64,000 nt of DNA. Origin: Sutcliffiella horikoshii DSM 8719. GTDB lineage: Bacteria; Bacillota; Bacilli; Bacillales; Bacillaceae_I. Of this stretch, positions 400 to 31,690 are shown piece after piece (position 1 is the stretch's first letter; each line of letters starts with the position of its first letter). The notes under the pieces were generated by a model, which saw nothing but the letters and a program-made list of their open reading frames with translations, searched no databases and was not told the origin of the DNA. Both the position numbers and the translations under genes were made by a program. The stretch is from the NCBI GenBank assembly GCA_001648575.1, contig LQXN01000057.1, forward strand, positions 1-64,000. Reading direction: 5' to 3'.

Positions 400-481
400 G
401 TGGGTCTTACCTGTCCCTTCCTCCCACAGGAGTCTTCGATCCTTCCACTGCGATCAACTAGGGAATTTGTCTACACACTGA
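400..481 (-). mobile_element. Terminator-associated repeat element, copy A (truncated by the IS4 element)
   Basis: This is half of the dispersed element seen at seven other sites in the window. The terminal inverted repeat is at 466-481 (TTTGTCTACACACTGA on the plus strand). Next to it is the conserved block containing TTGATCGCAGTGG (minus strand). The terminal repeat abuts the tuaH terminator hairpin (480-504). The copy stops near 400, where IS sequence begins. Confidence 0.75.
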
Positions 482-9902: not shown

Positions 9903-10997
9903 ATGAAATCAGCTAAAAAGAGCTATTTATTCGAGATACAGACCATAAGGGCAGTCGGTTGTTTGCTTGTCCTTTTAGTGCACGTTTCTGCCACATACTA
10001 TTACCAGCAGAACGGATATAACGATCTGACTTTCTTTCTAAATCAAATAGGAAGATTCGGCACACCACTTTTTGCAGTCATAAGCGGATTCTTACTCTTT
10101 TATCAAGTGAGAAAAAAGGGATTTGACTTTAAGCGATTCCTTTCCTCCAGAACTGTCAAGATCGGGGCACCTTTCGTCTTTTGGAGTGTATTTTATCTTT
10201 TATTAATGTTCGTTTTCGAAGGAAAGAATCCTCTAAGCGATGGCGAAAAAATATTTACGGTCAATTTTTTATTAGGAAATTCTTATGTGCACTTATATTT
10301 CATGTCCATCGTCTTTCAATTTTATCTATTGTTTCCTTTGCTGCAGTTTTTCCGTTCAAAGAAAAGCTGGATTTTTCTTTTAATAGCAGCATTAGGATTA
10401 AACCTATATGCAGTCCAGTATTATACTTCACCTGAAGAAATGAATACGGTAAATTACATCATGGATCAGCGGGCATTCTTGTTAAATTGGATATTCTTCT
10501 TTGTATTGGGCGGATTCCTGGCATATAACTGGGAATCAATTCAATACTACGCGAAGAGACTTAAGCTTGTTTCCATTGTCGGGGTCATCATGGTTGTACT
10601 ATTTACTATGTATGAATATCAAAATAAAGGATCTGTTTCTTCCAACAGGGCTTGGAATTTCTTGAATGTTCCCATTATCATTTTTGCCATTATCGGGCTT
10701 TATGATTATGTGAGCAAGTCTAAGTTATTAACGAACACTTTGAATATGATTGGCCAATTCTCCATGGGCATCTACCTTGTGCATATGTTTGTCATCTATG
10801 TATTTGTGCGTACTGTGCCGGAGAGTATTTGGACAACCATGAATTTCCCATTCGTATTTTTAGCCATTTTAGCAGGTTCTGTTGCCATGGTTAAGATTAT
10901 TCAATTACTACCTTGGAACCACTTAATTATAACAGTCCCTAAACCTAAAAACACAAAGTCCACTACTCAAAGACTACAGGAAAAAGCTGCTTCTTAA
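9903..10997 (+). CDS. Membrane O-acyltransferase (acyltransferase family 3)
   Basis: This protein of about 364 residues and 10 spans belongs to the Acyl_transf_3 family, which transfers acyl groups to surface sugars. The N-terminal span carries the conserved TIRAVGCLLVLLVHVSATYY, with the family histidine. Further in are RFGTPLFAVISGFLLFY and a C-terminal SMGIYLVHMFVIYVF. No SGNH hydrolase domain is fused, unlike OatA. I chose the ATG at 9903 (11 bases after AAGGAG) over 9894 and 9870, which are too close to or upstream of the site. It diverges from the tua operon, so modification of a wall polysaccharide is plausible, but the substrate is not known. The stop codon lies in the loop of its own terminator hairpin. 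Confidence 0.8.
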   Translation: MKSAKKSYLFEIQTIRAVGCLLVLLVHVSATYYYQQNGYNDLTFFLNQIGRFGTPLFAVISGFLLFYQVRKKGFDFKRFLSSRTVKIGAPFVFWSVFYLLLMFVFEGKNPLSDGEKIFTVNFLLGNSYVHLYFMSIVFQFYLLFPLLQFFRSKKSWIFLLIAALGLNLYAVQYYTSPEEMNTVNYIMDQRAFLLNWIFFFVLGGFLAYNWESIQYYAKRLKLVSIVGVIMVVLFTMYEYQNKGSVSSNRAWNFLNVPIIIFAIIGLYDYVSKSKLLTNTLNMIGQFSMGIYLVHMFVIYVFVRTVPESIWTTMNFPFVFLAILAGSVAMVKIIQLLPWNHLIITVPKPKNTKSTTQRLQEKAAS

Positions 10998-11011
10998 TAT
11001 TTGAAGCAGCT
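10983..11011 (+). terminator. Acyltransferase terminator hairpin, upstream copy (no T-tract)
   Basis: The stem AGCTGCTTC / GAAGCAGCT spans the stop codon. It is followed at once by the end of a repeat element (CAGTGTGTAGACAAA) instead of a T-run. A nearly identical hairpin with seven T's lies at 12998-13029 on the far side of the element. Confidence 0.8.
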
Positions 11012-11099
11012 CAGTGTGTAGACAAAGTTCAAATATGATAAATATCCCTAGTTGATTGTAGTAGAAGGCGCGCAGACTCCCTCAGAAAAGGTGATTATA

Positions 11100-11480
11100 C
11101 CAGGGTTAATCAAGTCTTTTTAAACTAATAAAAATATTTTTTTAACAGACAACTTCCAAATCCGTGACTATATTTGATATTTATGAAAAATAAAGGGTTT
11201 TAGGCTTACGCGATGCGGCAGGCGAGTGGTAAACACTCCCTTTGATTGCTTATGGGCACGTAAGGACTCTGCTTGTTAGGGGGACTAACCATCCCACGTC
11301 TCCTGGCATCGTGTGCCTACATTCCTTCGTTGGGTCTCACCCTAACGCAGAGGCCGGCAAATGCTCCCGCATGGACTGATCAAAGGACCGTCGAATGTCT
11401 CCTAGTGGCCGGCTTATCCGTGTCTGAGTTGTATACTGCTAGATGATACATTTGAATAAATAGACCTTGGTTACAGCGGT
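11100..11480 (-). ncRNA. Possible IS110 bridge RNA region (non-coding end of the IS)
   Basis: No protein is encoded in this stretch. It is GC-richer and more structured than its surroundings, with many short inverted repeats. IS110-family elements of the IS1111 type are known to encode their guide (bridge) RNA downstream of the transposase, which is where this lies. Short matches to the insertion site occur: GCTCCCGC at 11363-11370 equals the right target side, and GGACTCTGC at 11264-11272 is one mismatch from the complement of the left side. These are too short to prove guide loops. Confidence 0.35.
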
Positions 11481-11481
11481 C

Positions 11482-12761
11482 TTAAGCTGCGGTTGGCTGC
11501 GCTAAAATGGGTAAATCCTCCATCATTCGATTGGCGTCAAAGGCTTTTTGATGCTGACTTAGTCCATGAAATATCTTAAGCAGCTTACTGCACAGAACGA
11601 CAATGGCTTCTTTTCCAGCTAAAGGATTCTCTTTCCGGGTTCGGTAATACTCATAAAGTTTCATGAATGCTTGATTGTTTCGAATCAAGGGAAACACAGC
11701 TTTGTACAACAGGGCTCTTAGTCTCCTTCGTCCCCGTTTGGAGATTCTCTTTTGGCCATCATACTTCCCGGAGGAATTGGTCGCAAGCGTTAACCCCGCA
11801 TGTTTAATAAGTTGGCGTGGGTTATCATAGAGCTTGAGTGAACCGGTCTGCGCGATGAGTTCCATGACGGTATTTTCGCTAATGCCAGGAATCGAAACCA
11901 GGTATTTAAATTCAGGAAGGCGTCTCGCAATCTCTGTGAGCTCAGCGGTGATCGCCTCCAGTTGGTCTTCAAGCATATGGTATTGGTCAAGTAAAGCATG
12001 GATCTCATTGCGGGCCATAACTGGACTATAAGTTAAGCCAATGGAGTGCTCGGCTACTTCAAACAGGCGTGAGAGAGCGTCTTTACGAAGGGCTTTCAGC
12101 CCTTGTGTTTTTAACTCGGCAACGAGTTTGTCATAGGTCGTGTTTCTCACATCACTTGGCAAAGGAACCAGACGTAACAACGCACACGCCTGAACGCCAA
12201 GGCCCTTGTACACTTCCTCAAATTCAGGGAAATAGAGATCCATCCATCTGCGTATTCGATTTTTCACCGAGGTGATGGTTTCTTGAAGCCGAGTTCGAAA
12301 GGCGGAGCCTTGTCGAAGTTCATGATCATCTTCGCTCATCGTGCGTTGAACACTGTAATTCCCCTGAGGAATTAATTTGGCAATGACACGAGCGTCCTTT
12401 TGATCATTTTTACTTTGACTATTATCATCCAATTCTTTGACTTCTTCACGTGCATGGGATTGACCAGAACGGTGGGGATACCTCGATCCTTTAAAAAGGA
12501 GGCAAGGTTCATCCAGTAGTGCCCCGTGGGTTCAAATCCCACGTAGACCGTCGTTTTCCCATGGATCTTCATCAGTTCTATCAGCTTGTCATAAAATTTT
12601 TCGAAGCCTTGAGCTGACTGAGCGACTAACCAACTCTTACTTAGCTCACGACCTCGTTCATCAATGGCAATTGCATAATGAAAGCTCTTGGCAATGTCGA
12701 TTCCGATGATTAAGGTGTGTTCATTTATTTGATTAATTTTTTGATTTCTACTATGATGCAT
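11482..12761 (-). pseudogene. IS110-family transposase, inactivated by a one-base frameshift
   Basis: The start is ATG at 12761 after AAAGGAG. The N-terminal RuvC-like DEDD domain shows LIIGIDIAKSFHYAIAID and VYVGFEPTGHYW. The remaining Asp pair, NDQKDARVIAKL, is in another frame. The C-terminal Transposase_20 domain has LVSIPGISENTVMELIAQTG and the catalytic-serine region NSSGKYDGQKRISKRGRR. Reading breaks near 12435: inserting one G into TCAAAGAATTGG would restore SKELDDN and give about 426 residues. The break separates catalytic residues, so the protein should be inactive unless ribosomes shift here. I see no slippery heptamer, so mutation is more likely. Confidence 0.85.
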
Positions 12762-12997
12762 GTAAAGACTCTCCTTTATGTGCGAATTGGTTTTGTCACC
12801 TTGCATCATAACGGAGGGTCTTTTTTTGTGCAATAGCCGTTGGACTATCTCACAGGAATAGCTCCCGCGGGAGGAAGGGACATGTAAGACCCCGCAGGCG
12901 TAAGCCGAGGAGGCTTACGGACCGCCCGCAGGAAAGCGAAGCGCCTGGAACGAAAATCAACTGTTCCAACAGATAACTTAGTTTGTCAACAGTCTGA

Positions 12998-13029
12998 AAG
13001 CTGCTTCTTAATATTGAAGCAGCTTTTTT
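12998..13029 (+). terminator. Acyltransferase terminator hairpin, downstream copy with T-tract
   Basis: The stem AAAGCTGCTTC / GAAGCAGCTTT is followed by T's, a near-copy of 10983-11011. It is presumably the original functional terminator, now displaced by the repeat and IS. The following 13030-13163 is AT-rich and holds the upstream region of the next gene; I see no other feature there. Confidence 0.8.
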
Positions 13030-13576: not shown

Positions 13577-13679
13577 TCAAGTTGTTGAAAAACTATTAAG
13601 TAGGTATGTTATCTGTTGGAACAGTTGATTTTTATTACAGGGTTTTTATAACTCAAAAATAACTTCGTCTAAATACTAG
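13577..13679. mobile_element. Terminator-associated repeat element, copy C (decayed, internally deleted, reverse orientation)
   Basis: This 103-bp remnant has a left end resembling TGTTGAAAAA, followed by the conserved TATCTGTTGGAACAGTTGAT of the element's right arm. The other end, TTCGTCTAAATACTAG, is a worn terminal repeat. It is flanked by two related hairpins, GTACCAATC/GATAGGTGG at 13552-13574 and GCACCAAT/ATTGGTGC at 13681-13702, so it shows the same terminator duplication in decayed form. Confidence 0.6.
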
Positions 13680-17009: not shown

Positions 17010-17033
17010 AAGTAAAAGCCCCATTTAGGGGCC
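17010..17033 (-). terminator. Terminator on the amidase strand
   Basis: On the minus strand GGCCCC / GGGGC with loop TAAAT is followed by TTTTA. It lies beyond repeat copy D, so the amidase transcript must read through the repeat to reach it. Confidence 0.65.
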
Positions 17034-17252
17034 TTACAGACTGTTGACATACTATAAAATAGTTAGGTTATTTACTGGAACAGTTGATCTTCGTTTCAGG
17101 AGCTTCGCTTTCCGCGGGGCGACCTTGAGCCTCCTCGGGTTTACACCCTGCGGGGTCTCAAGAATGTCGCTATCCCCCCGCTGGAGTCTTCGCTCCTTAC
17201 ACTACGATCAACTAGAGAATCTCATTATTTTGAGGTTTTTCTTCACACATAG
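17034..17252. mobile_element. Terminator-associated repeat element, copy D (reverse orientation)
   Basis: This copy of about 219 bp has one end ACAGACTGTTGACA next to the terminator at 17010-17033 and the other end TTCACACATAG, worn. The central stem pair is CTTGAG / CTCAAG. It lies between the amidase stop codon and its terminator. A second hairpin copy on the amidase side is not recognisable. It accounts for the coding-like open frames seen here. Confidence 0.75.
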
Positions 17253-23338: not shown

Positions 23339-23374
23339 AAGCGCAGGGCCATCTACATTGATGGCCCTGCGCTT
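23339..23374. terminator. ywqA terminator hairpin, upstream copy (no T-tract)
   Basis: The stem AAGCGCAGGGCCATC / GATGGCCCTGCGCTT has a 6-base loop. It runs straight into the repeat end CAGTGTATAGACAAA. A second copy of the hairpin, with T's, is at 23585-23622. Confidence 0.85.
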
Positions 23375-23585
23375 CAGTGTATAGACAAAGTTCTTTTTGA
23401 GCTATAATTCCCCTGTTGATCGTAGTGGAAGGAGCGTAGACTCCTGTGGGAGGAAGGGACAGGTAAGACCCCTCAGGCGGAGTGAGGAGGCTTACGGACC
23501 GCCCACTGGAAAGCGAAGCTCCTTCAACGGAGATCAACTGGTCCAACTGATACTTTTATTAGTTTATATTTTATCAACAGTCTGA
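23374..23585. mobile_element. Terminator-associated repeat element, copy E (212 bp, complete)
   Basis: The left end TCAGTGTATAGACAAA (23374-23389) and right end ATCAACAGTCTGA (about 23573-23585) are imperfect inverted repeats. The internal arms TTGATCGTAGTGGAAGGAGC and GCTCCTTCAACGGAGATCAA pair, with a central stem GTAAG (23463-23467) / CTTAC (23491-23495). Flanking hairpins of about 36 bp are duplicated on both sides. Confidence 0.9.
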
Positions 23586-23622
23586 AGCGCAGCTTCCATC
23601 TACATTGATGGCCCTGCGCTTT
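23585..23622. terminator. ywqA/VanZ shared terminator, downstream copy with T-tract
   Basis: The stem AAGCGCAGC...CCATC / GATGGCCCTGCGCTT has three mismatched bases on the left arm and is followed by TTTATTAG. The VanZ stop codon (23600-23602) lies within it, so the hairpin doubles as the 3' end of that gene. Confidence 0.75.
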
Positions 23623-24174: not shown

Positions 24175-24393
24175 CCAGGCAGGTGAAAAGGTATTAATCT
24201 TTAGGAATATGTAATGCCCATGTTGATCGTAGTGGCATGCGCGCATACTCCTGCGGGAGGAAGGGACATGGGAGACTCCCCCAGGCTTGCCGAAGAGGCT
24301 CCCGGACCGCCCGCTTGAAAGCGAAGCTCCTGGAATGAAGATCAACAATTCATATGCAAATCTAAAGATTATTACGGTTTGTCACCGATCTGA
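24175..24393. mobile_element. Terminator-associated repeat element, copy F (worn)
   Basis: The arms TTGATCGTAGTGG and GATCAACAATTC are present, and the right end TTTGTCACCGATCTGA is at 24378-24393. The left end (about 24175) is poorly preserved. The central stem here is GGGAG (24270-24274) / CTCCC (24299-24303), a third sequence version that still pairs. A T-run follows the right end. The interval 24394-24462 is AT-rich, with a repeated TTACGGTTTGTC, and no other feature is seen. Confidence 0.75.
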
Positions 24394-24462
24394 GGCTTTT
24401 TTTAAAAAAGATTCTACTTAATTACGGTTTGTCCTATATAGCCAACCCTTATACACTACAAG

Positions 24463-31158: not shown

Positions 31159-31191
31159 AAGCGAATCACCATATTTACTGGCGATTCGCTT
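31159..31191 (+). terminator. Terminator hairpin, copy 1 of 3 (no T-tract)
   Basis: The stem AAGCGAATC-CC / GG-GATTCGCTT lies nine bases after the stop of the small anchored protein gene and is followed immediately by the repeat end CAGTGGGGAGACAAAG. Sister copies are at 31408-31440 and 31653-31690. Confidence 0.8.
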
Positions 31192-31408
31192 CAGTGGGGA
31201 GACAAAGCTTTGAGAATATTTAAATCCCCTAGTTGATCGCAGTGGAAGGAGCGTAGACTCCTGCGGGGAGATAGCGACATTTTTGAGACCCCCCAGGGTT
31301 GTAAACCCGAGGAGGCTCAAGTCGCCCCGCGGAAAGCGAAGCTCCTGCAACGGAGATCAACTGTTCCAACAGATAACCTTACTTCTTAATGGTTTATTAA
31401 CAGTCTGA
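31191..31408. mobile_element. Terminator-associated repeat element, copy G (218 bp, complete)
   Basis: The left end TCAGTGGGGAGACAAAG is at 31191 and the right end TTAACAGTCTGA ends at 31408. The outer arms TTGATCGCAGTGGAAGGAGC / GCTCCTGCAACGGAGATCAA pair, with inner GCGAC / TCGC and TTGAG / CTCAA pairing and apex AGGGT / ACCC. It is flanked by terminator hairpin copies 1 and 2. Confidence 0.9.
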
Positions 31409-31440
31409 AGCGAATCACCACATTCACTGGCGATTCGCTT
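31408..31440 (+). terminator. Terminator hairpin, copy 2 of 3 (no T-tract)
   Basis: The stem AAGCGAATC / GATTCGCTT has inner ACC / GGC bases. It lies between repeat copies G and H. Confidence 0.8.
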
Positions 31441-31653
31441 CAGTGTGGAGACAAAGGTTAGAAAATGAAATCCCCTAGTTGATCGCAGTGGAAGGAGCGT
31501 AGACTCCTGCGGGGGGATAGCGACATTCTTGAGACCCCGCAGGGTGTAAACCCGAGGAGGCTCAAGGTCGCCCCGCGGAAAGCGAAGCTCCTGCAACGGA
31601 GATCAACTGTTCCAACAGATAACTTGACTTCCTTATAGTTTTTCAACAACCTA
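31440..31653. mobile_element. Terminator-associated repeat element, copy H (214 bp, complete)
   Basis: The left end TCAGTGTGGAGACAAAG is at 31440 and the right end TTTTTCAACAACCTAA ends near 31653. It is the same orientation and subtype as copy G (CTTGAG at 31528-31533 pairing with CTCAAG at 31561-31566). It is flanked by hairpin copies 2 and 3. Confidence 0.9.
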
Positions 31654-31690
31654 AAGCGAATCGCCATAATCAATGGCGATTCGCTTTTTT
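31653..31690 (+). terminator. Terminator hairpin, copy 3 of 3, with T-tract
   Basis: The stem AAGCGAATCGCCAT / ATGGCGATTCGCTT is followed by seven T's. It is the best-paired and presumably original terminator, also facing the end of the convergent mannosidase gene. Confidence 0.85.

Follow-up and report, generated by a model that had tools for sequence, protein, structure and literature searches.

Background

In the genome of Sutcliffiella horikoshii DSM 8719, a short non-coding element lies between two copies of the same stem-loop, which raises the question whether these hairpins are parts of the element or whether a complete hairpin was duplicated as its target upon insertion. The latter had been claimed in a preliminary description of the locus. 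We examined this element, referred to as copy E, together with its relatives in the window (the 64,000-nucleotide stretch of DNA that was analysed, i.e. positions 1-64,000 of contig LQXN01000057.1, forward strand), in the remainder of the genome and in other genomes.

Results

Copies in the window

The upstream hairpin of copy E abuts the start of the element (CAGTGTAT) directly, without a T-tract between them (Table 1). The preliminary description had correctly recognised an element flanked by hairpins with a T-tract on the downstream side only, but its length of 212 bp has to be replaced by the 210 bp measured. The same architecture, which it had reported for other places in the window, is two-sided at copies B, G and H as it is at E, one-sided at A and D, decayed at C and lacking at F. 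At A, C, D and F the intact two-sided form is thus lacking. Four relatives are empty and possess a single hairpin at the site of copy D, where congener G010 has an element that points the other way. Copy F does not qualify as a terminator insertion: it has no hairpin, four of five relatives are hairpin-free at this site (by eye) and the fifth, G016, carries an unrelated insert. The IS110-family element that splits copy B (Pfam Transposase_20 and DEDD_Tnp_IS110, with the gene in two pieces) sits in the core of this copy, at a short palindromic stretch GACTCC...CTCCCGCGGGAGG.

Table 1. Positions of the MITE copies and their hairpins in the window
Feature	Position	Strand	Remarks
Copy A, partial	402..480	-	single adjoining hairpin ~481-504
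Upstream hairpin, copy B	10985..11011	.	
MITE copy B	11012..12996	+	split by IS110-family element ~11081-12860, transposase pieces on - strand
Downstream hairpin, copy B	12997..13025	.	T-tract present
Copy C, decayed	13583..13677	-	decayed or different hairpins on flanks
Copy D, decayed	17037..17248	-	one remaining hairpin ~17014-17036
Upstream stem-loop copy, copy E, 36 bp	23339..23374	.	AAGCGCAG...CTGCGCTT (also given as AAGCGCAGGGCC...CTGCGCTT)
MITE copy E, 210 bp	23375..23584	+	CAG at 23375, CTG at 23584; ends CAGTGTATAGACAAA...TTTATCAACAGTCTG
Structured core repeat within copy E	23416..23539	+	TTGATCGTAGTGG...GGAGATCAACT; non-IS; standalone in congeners too
Downstream stem-loop near copy, copy E, 37 bp	23585..23621	.	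T-rich TTATTAG right after; single such hairpin in element-free congeners
Copy F, core with badly decayed ends	24187..24398	+	without flanking hairpin
Hairpin 1 of three around copies G and H	31159..31191	.	
MITE copy G	31192..31407	+	
Hairpin 2, common to copies G and H	31408..31440	.	
MITE copy H	31441..31652	+	
Hairpin 3 at copies G and H	31653..31686	.	T-tract present

Copies in the genome and in congeners

In a search of the genome (4.68 Mb, 67 contigs) 45 matches were obtained, and a first look yielded 288 candidates, of which 40 were scored; the 30 best copies were fetched. A hairpin is visible by eye at each side of 28 of these 30 (the exceptions being L023 and L024). There are 127 occurrences of the end word GTAGACAAAG, 68 forward and 59 reverse, compared with 10 and 28 for the reversed-pattern control. 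A 364-kb sample of consecutive stretches of this genome (the window plus 15 of 20 kb) contains 31 core matches, 20 of them two-ended, which would correspond to about 250 two-ended copies genome-wide if extrapolated. Sixteen of the 20 possess a matching direct repeat, and 14 of these repeats fold at -4 kcal/mol or better; no duplication was found at the remaining four (window 17079, window 24217, L056 14435 and L060 9707).

A stricter end search, which missed copy H, covered 264 kb of this genome and 280 kb each of the congeners G016 and G010, and found 16, 10 and 5 elements with duplication, respectively (31 in total); from 80 kb each of G005, G009 and G007 no elements were listed. For 27 of the 31 elements the better hairpin copy reaches -8 or lower on folding. 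Their targets lie at most 150 bp 3' of an ORF stop in 29 cases (the random-position control was run for IS targets only), and in 30 the flank is rich in A or T, with at least five A on the left or five T on the right per 8 nt. Most copies are therefore found at terminators and not away from them, as the preliminary description had supposed. Two elements with the same type of ends and a hairpin duplication possess longer interiors (364 bp in G016, C1:2344775, and 282 bp in G010, C1:1002915), and the ends may accordingly mobilise more than one kind of cargo.

Empty sites and shared terminators

Inspected by eye, 14 of 15 congeners have one such hairpin and no element where copy E lies in this genome, and G011 has a different insert; unrelated repeats occur nearby in some congeners. 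Another hairpin-forming repeat (GACAATCTCACT...GGATTGTCTTCAT) is located beside the copy E terminator in four of them (L151, L152, L157, L159). For the 31 elements, 74 ortholog comparisons were tried, in 43 of which both flanks were found (not in the other 31). Among the 43, 25 comparisons, representing 16 elements, were scored as empty and 18 as 'occupied?', although three of the latter are without element ends (copy E and 170529 versus G010, 112090 versus G016). A single target hairpin, often diverged, was recognised by eye in 24 of the 25 empty comparisons, the ambiguous case being G016 111177 versus G000. Relatives that lack the element thus clearly possess one hairpin and not two, and these single-hairpin empty sites bear out the earlier claim that the entire hairpin acts as target duplication.

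Five terminators are occupied in two species by elements of opposite orientation (G000 68988 / G016 73775; G000 88260 / G016 93261; G000 143600 / G010 152915; G016 89178 / G010 77069; window copy D / G010 22933). We read these as independent insertions, although inversion between the palindromic flanks could also flip the orientation at a shared terminator. In one such case (G000 C65:88260 versus G016 C1:2413261) the hairpin copies are identical within each species and different between them, pointing to either separate recent insertions or concerted change.

The interior of the element

The interior of the MITE is formed by a repeat of ~123 bp (GTTGAT[CT]...ATCAAC) with covarying stems, which has matches in each of the 18 family genomes searched. 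In the loci read, this core occurs either alone (e.g. L192, L193, L194, L196, L208, L209) or between IS1182-type ends. Ten standalone cores have a mean pairwise identity of 0.89 over their first 20 bases and of 0.91 over their last 20, against 0.40 and 0.30 in the respective flanks, and when the MITE is compared with three IS copies (blastn) only the end matches stand out. An interior derived from an IS by deletion was rejected, since only the ends match the IS and the core stands alone with sharp borders; the MITE is accordingly a chimera, with IS1182-type ends around an independent repeat.

The fold of the core is branched. For 10 of its 33 pairs, at least one of the 17 sequences aligned has both partners changed and pairing preserved; one of these sequences (L213) is probably in the wrong orientation. 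The whole stretch has a folding z of -8.3. Rfam at gathering threshold gave no match in the window, the sole weaker hits at copy E being Atu_C9 and tsr24; in plasmid records only two weak core matches were found. Structured repeat families, Bhal-1 and Bhal-2, have been described from B. halodurans (PMC2267715).

The partner insertion sequence

Two copies of a putative partner were located in this genome by a search with an IS1182 model combined with the end word: a broken element at ~C4:393191-394725 (ends CAGCTTGTAGACAAAG...TTTGTCTACGGTCTG), situated between two copies of one hairpin of which the left one is shortened, and a truncated copy at C58. No intact autonomous copy of the CAG-ended clade was found in this draft assembly. 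The MITE, which is 210 bp long and has no transposase, possesses ends that closely resemble those at C4 and C58, and MITE and CAG-ended IS show the same target choice and the same duplication. A close transposase relative (E <= 1e-40) is present in four of 18 genomes of the family, this one included. In G009 (L065) an open transposase gene of 448 aa has exact 30-bp hairpin copies on both sides, and in G001 a transposase 67% identical lies between 22-bp hairpin copies. The IS1182 family model scores 477 bits for L065 and 483 bits for L067 (cut-off 270), and the Pfam matches in both (DUF772, DDE_Tnp_1 and DDE_Tnp_1_6) mark the transposase as a putative DDE enzyme. Terminal inverted repeats match at 12-15 of 16 positions in 13 labelled IS copies.

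The preliminary description had proposed a search for a full-length IS with the same ends, and such an element does exist, with an open gene in G009 and two damaged copies here. Its guess of an IS1182-family origin holds for the ends, but the interior is not an IS deletion derivative, nor do the elements belong to the IS1272-type branch. An intact IS1182-like gene at C67 was rejected as partner, being only ~22% identical to L065 and with no CAG ends found, and transposase fragments at contig ends (L035, L036, L038, L039, L042, L043) did not match any of 13 representatives.

Hairpin repeats at transposase-bearing copies

From a scan of named genomes we took the best 80 of 500 relatives, which belong to Bacillus, Cytobacillus, Lysinibacillus, Ureibacillus, Sporosarcina, Neobacillus, Saccharibacillus and other genera. 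Six were dropped, five with too little flank (L070, L072, L075, L076, L077) and one at a contig end (L074), and the addition of L065 and L067 to the remaining 74 resulted in 76 tested copies, chosen by transposase match and not by gene intactness; many come from the same genomes, but from different sites. In this set (best 80 of 500 plus two), a direct repeat of 19-42 bp (median 26) was found at 69 of the 76 copies and is exact in 66 of the 69; with a wider search L081 was added, so that 70 of 76 have a whole stem-loop repeat. The 69 repeats stop within about one base of CAG...CTG, except for L102, where the repeat extends a few bases over the right end.

Of the 69 repeats (best 80 of 500 plus two), 67 fold at -8 kcal/mol or better; among 4140 random segments, matched in length and drawn from these loci, 113 do so. 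Each of the 69 is more stable than the mean of its shuffles by at least 3 kcal/mol (mean -14.8 versus -2.5). Counted from the foot, positions 2-8 are complementary in 61-64 of the 69. The foot is not always the last base pair, as the outermost base pairs in 50 of 69 only and the first base outside the foot could pair as well in 55 of 68. A matching hairpin repeat was not found in six of the 76 copies (L079, L080, L115, L116, L123, L145); here either a single end has a hairpin or the hairpins of the two ends are dissimilar, both ends being visible in L123 and L145, and this points to rearrangement.

IS targets in the same set (best 80 of 500 plus two) lie at most 150 bp 3' of an ORF stop in 57 of 69 cases, against 310 of 1380 random positions, and within ORF calls of at least 80 aa in seven of 69, against 951 of 1380. 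The flanking gene is on the left in 25, on the right in 15, on both sides in 17 and absent in 12; orientation relative to the gene is not fixed, and 25 versus 15 is no strong bias. The location 3' of ORFs agrees with PMC9208149, according to which a convergent gene-IS-gene arrangement is over-represented for IS1182, among other families.

Distribution among IS1182 transposases

A second sample comprised 199 genomes of the phylum and 150 of the order, of which 29 and 35 had a match at 1e-100. Three of the 58 loci fetched were without usable protein (L241, L244, L248), and the remaining 55 transposases were placed in a tree of 73 together with 18 chosen from the earlier set. All 36 CAG-ended rows fall on one side of one branch (support 100/99), the end-type labels being pattern matches, some of them one-sided, with 13 tree rows unlabelled; the tree tool warns of long branches for L260, L292, L254 and L259, of which L254 is CAG-labelled. 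Where flanks were measured in the second sample, a hairpin repeat was present in 15 of 18 CAG-ended copies (exceptions L238, L242, L275) and in none of 37 non-CAG IS1182 transposases, one of which (L251) has a flank too short to test. The repeats of L268, L271 and L273 are those of L132, L113 and L122, probably from the same sites, and L242 and L145 have the same transposase, so the two samples overlap. Judged from sequence, hairpin duplication is confined to one transposase clade in the samples examined.

For the GGCTG-ended members, which we take from their ends to be of the IS1272 type and which show no hairpin duplication, the best end pairs mostly have 0-bp direct repeats (2 bp in L277, 4 bp in L255). 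Four of them (L279, L269, L245, L281) are bordered by an A-rich and a T-rich stretch, have no hairpin repeat and look as though the stem of a terminator had given way to the ends of the IS. GACCA-ended copies possess 7-bp direct repeats (GACGGTC, AACCGTC and GACGGTT in L253, L290 and L291), whose relatedness suggests a sequence-specific target.

Discussion

How does a complete hairpin come to be duplicated?

Sequence comparison establishes that MITE and IS have the same ends, that both are flanked by a duplication of the whole stem-loop, that empty sites have a single hairpin and that the duplication varies in length. Taken as a whole, these features are explained with high probability if the MITEs are non-autonomous passengers of a distinct CAG...CTG-ended IS1182 clade, whose transposase would recognise a palindromic target, usually a terminator, folded back as cruciform or hairpin. 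As a rule the transposase itself determines the stagger, and its duplications are accordingly near-fixed in length. A variable duplication equal to the stem-loop would be hard to make with a fixed stagger; here its length instead tracks the target hairpin, from 18 to 42 bp, an indication that shape is what the enzyme recognises in its target, and not a sequence or a fixed length. We infer that the points of attack of the DDE transposase are the two 5' feet at the base of the cruciform or hairpin and that gap repair would then put a copy of the whole stem-loop on both sides, so that the shape of the target sets the length of the duplication. The MITEs would be mobilised in trans by the IS transposase, as their shared ends and target imply. 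Since the left hairpin is followed by the end of the element (e.g. CAGTGTGT or CAGACTGT) and by no T-tract, transcripts would read past this first hairpin and terminate at the second; it follows from the sequence that insertion should leave a working terminator in place. With less assurance, yet as the better bet, we extend this to a DDE clade that picks its targets by DNA shape, cutting at the feet of the four-way junction of an extruded palindrome, for which terminators genome-wide would be a reservoir of safe sites, open to the IS and to a captured structured passenger.

Much of this could also be had from hairpins formed on the single-stranded lagging-strand template, which would be attacked during replication, the complementary strand being attacked or replicated later. 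Single strands form hairpins readily and the foot-to-foot geometry fits either state, but the Pfam domains of the transposase are those of DDE enzymes, which normally join both strands of a duplex target, and orientation relative to the gene shows no strong bias (25 versus 15; best 80 of 500 plus two); we give this course a minor share of the probability. We think it improbable that the actual target is a terminating transcription complex or an exposed non-template strand, with the palindrome duplicated incidentally. The position of 57 of 69 IS targets (best 80 of 500 plus two) and 29 of 31 MITE targets just 3' of ORFs would suit it, and strong intergenic hairpins are mostly terminators anyway; the ends of the duplication, however, follow both feet of the stem without strong directional bias, and nine of the 69 IS targets have no A- or T-rich flank and 12 no ORF stop within 150 bp, so that a canonical terminator seems unnecessary.

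That the hairpins are parts carried by the element, as their presence at each side of 28 of the 30 best copies might suggest, is hardly credible, being contradicted by the variation of the hairpins among sites and by their similarity to the one hairpin of the orthologous empty site. The elements might, finally, be domesticated host regulatory RNAs of 3'-UTRs, which multiplied by duplication and were retained for the effect of their core on the stability or control of mRNAs. The conserved structure of this core, with its two-sided changes in 10 of 33 pairs and the folding of the whole stretch (z = -8.3), speaks for such a role, but empty sites in at least one congener for 16 of 31 elements and the decay in place of copies A, C, D and F speak against it, and the structure may serve the mobility of the core itself; we regard such an origin as rather unlikely.

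Hairpin targeting offers a reason why many copies can accumulate with little gene disruption, and a doubled terminator hairpin may be used in annotation as the mark of an insertion. Within IS1182 the outcome, i.e. hairpin duplicated, no duplication or a short fixed one, appears to follow clade and end type, which would make this family well suited to the study of how DNA structure is read by transposases.

Comparison with known systems

A 2015 review by Siguier is said to state that some IS1182 members target palindromes. Group IIC introns insert at terminators. Like these introns, REP-targeting insertion sequences also prefer palindromes or terminator hairpins and spare genes; unlike the elements described here, they rely on particular REP sequences or go in next to the stem, and they are not known to produce a variable duplication of the whole stem-loop. 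Insertion sequences that target REP palindromes are treated in PMC1525189, and palindrome targeting by IS1182 members is already in print, as quoted in PMC5678879 and PMC4923244. Within the literature searched, most subscription journals and ISfinder lying outside its reach, we found neither a description of the MITE family, in line with the preliminary description, nor whole-hairpin duplication reported as an observed fact.

MITEs related to ISMac2 of the IS1182 family (PMC3852290) and other prokaryotic MITEs are likewise short and non-coding, with IS-like terminal repeats and high copy number. The present elements differ from those related to ISMac2 in that their interior is an unrelated structured repeat and their duplication a whole terminator stem-loop. 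ISPse1 and ISCaa15, as well as the GACCA-ended group, have transposases of the same family but only short duplications (4 bp for the former two according to PMC3281130 and PMC3196728; 7 bp in L253, L290 and L291) and no hairpin duplication.

A close likeness in family, targets and orientation exists to IS1272 and TnSha1 of staphylococci, which also belong to IS1182 and which, according to PMC4923244 and PMC5678879, target potential stem-loops including terminators in either orientation and with no primary-sequence consensus. According to the same two sources, however, IS1272 deletes all or part of its target hairpin and leaves no duplication; a duplication route appears in Fig 13 of PMC5678879 as an alternative 'pathway b', not as an observation on IS1272. 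The CAG-ended IS, by contrast, duplicates the whole stem-loop in 70 of 76 copies (best 80 of 500 plus two), and the CAG-ended elements therefore represent a different branch of IS1182.
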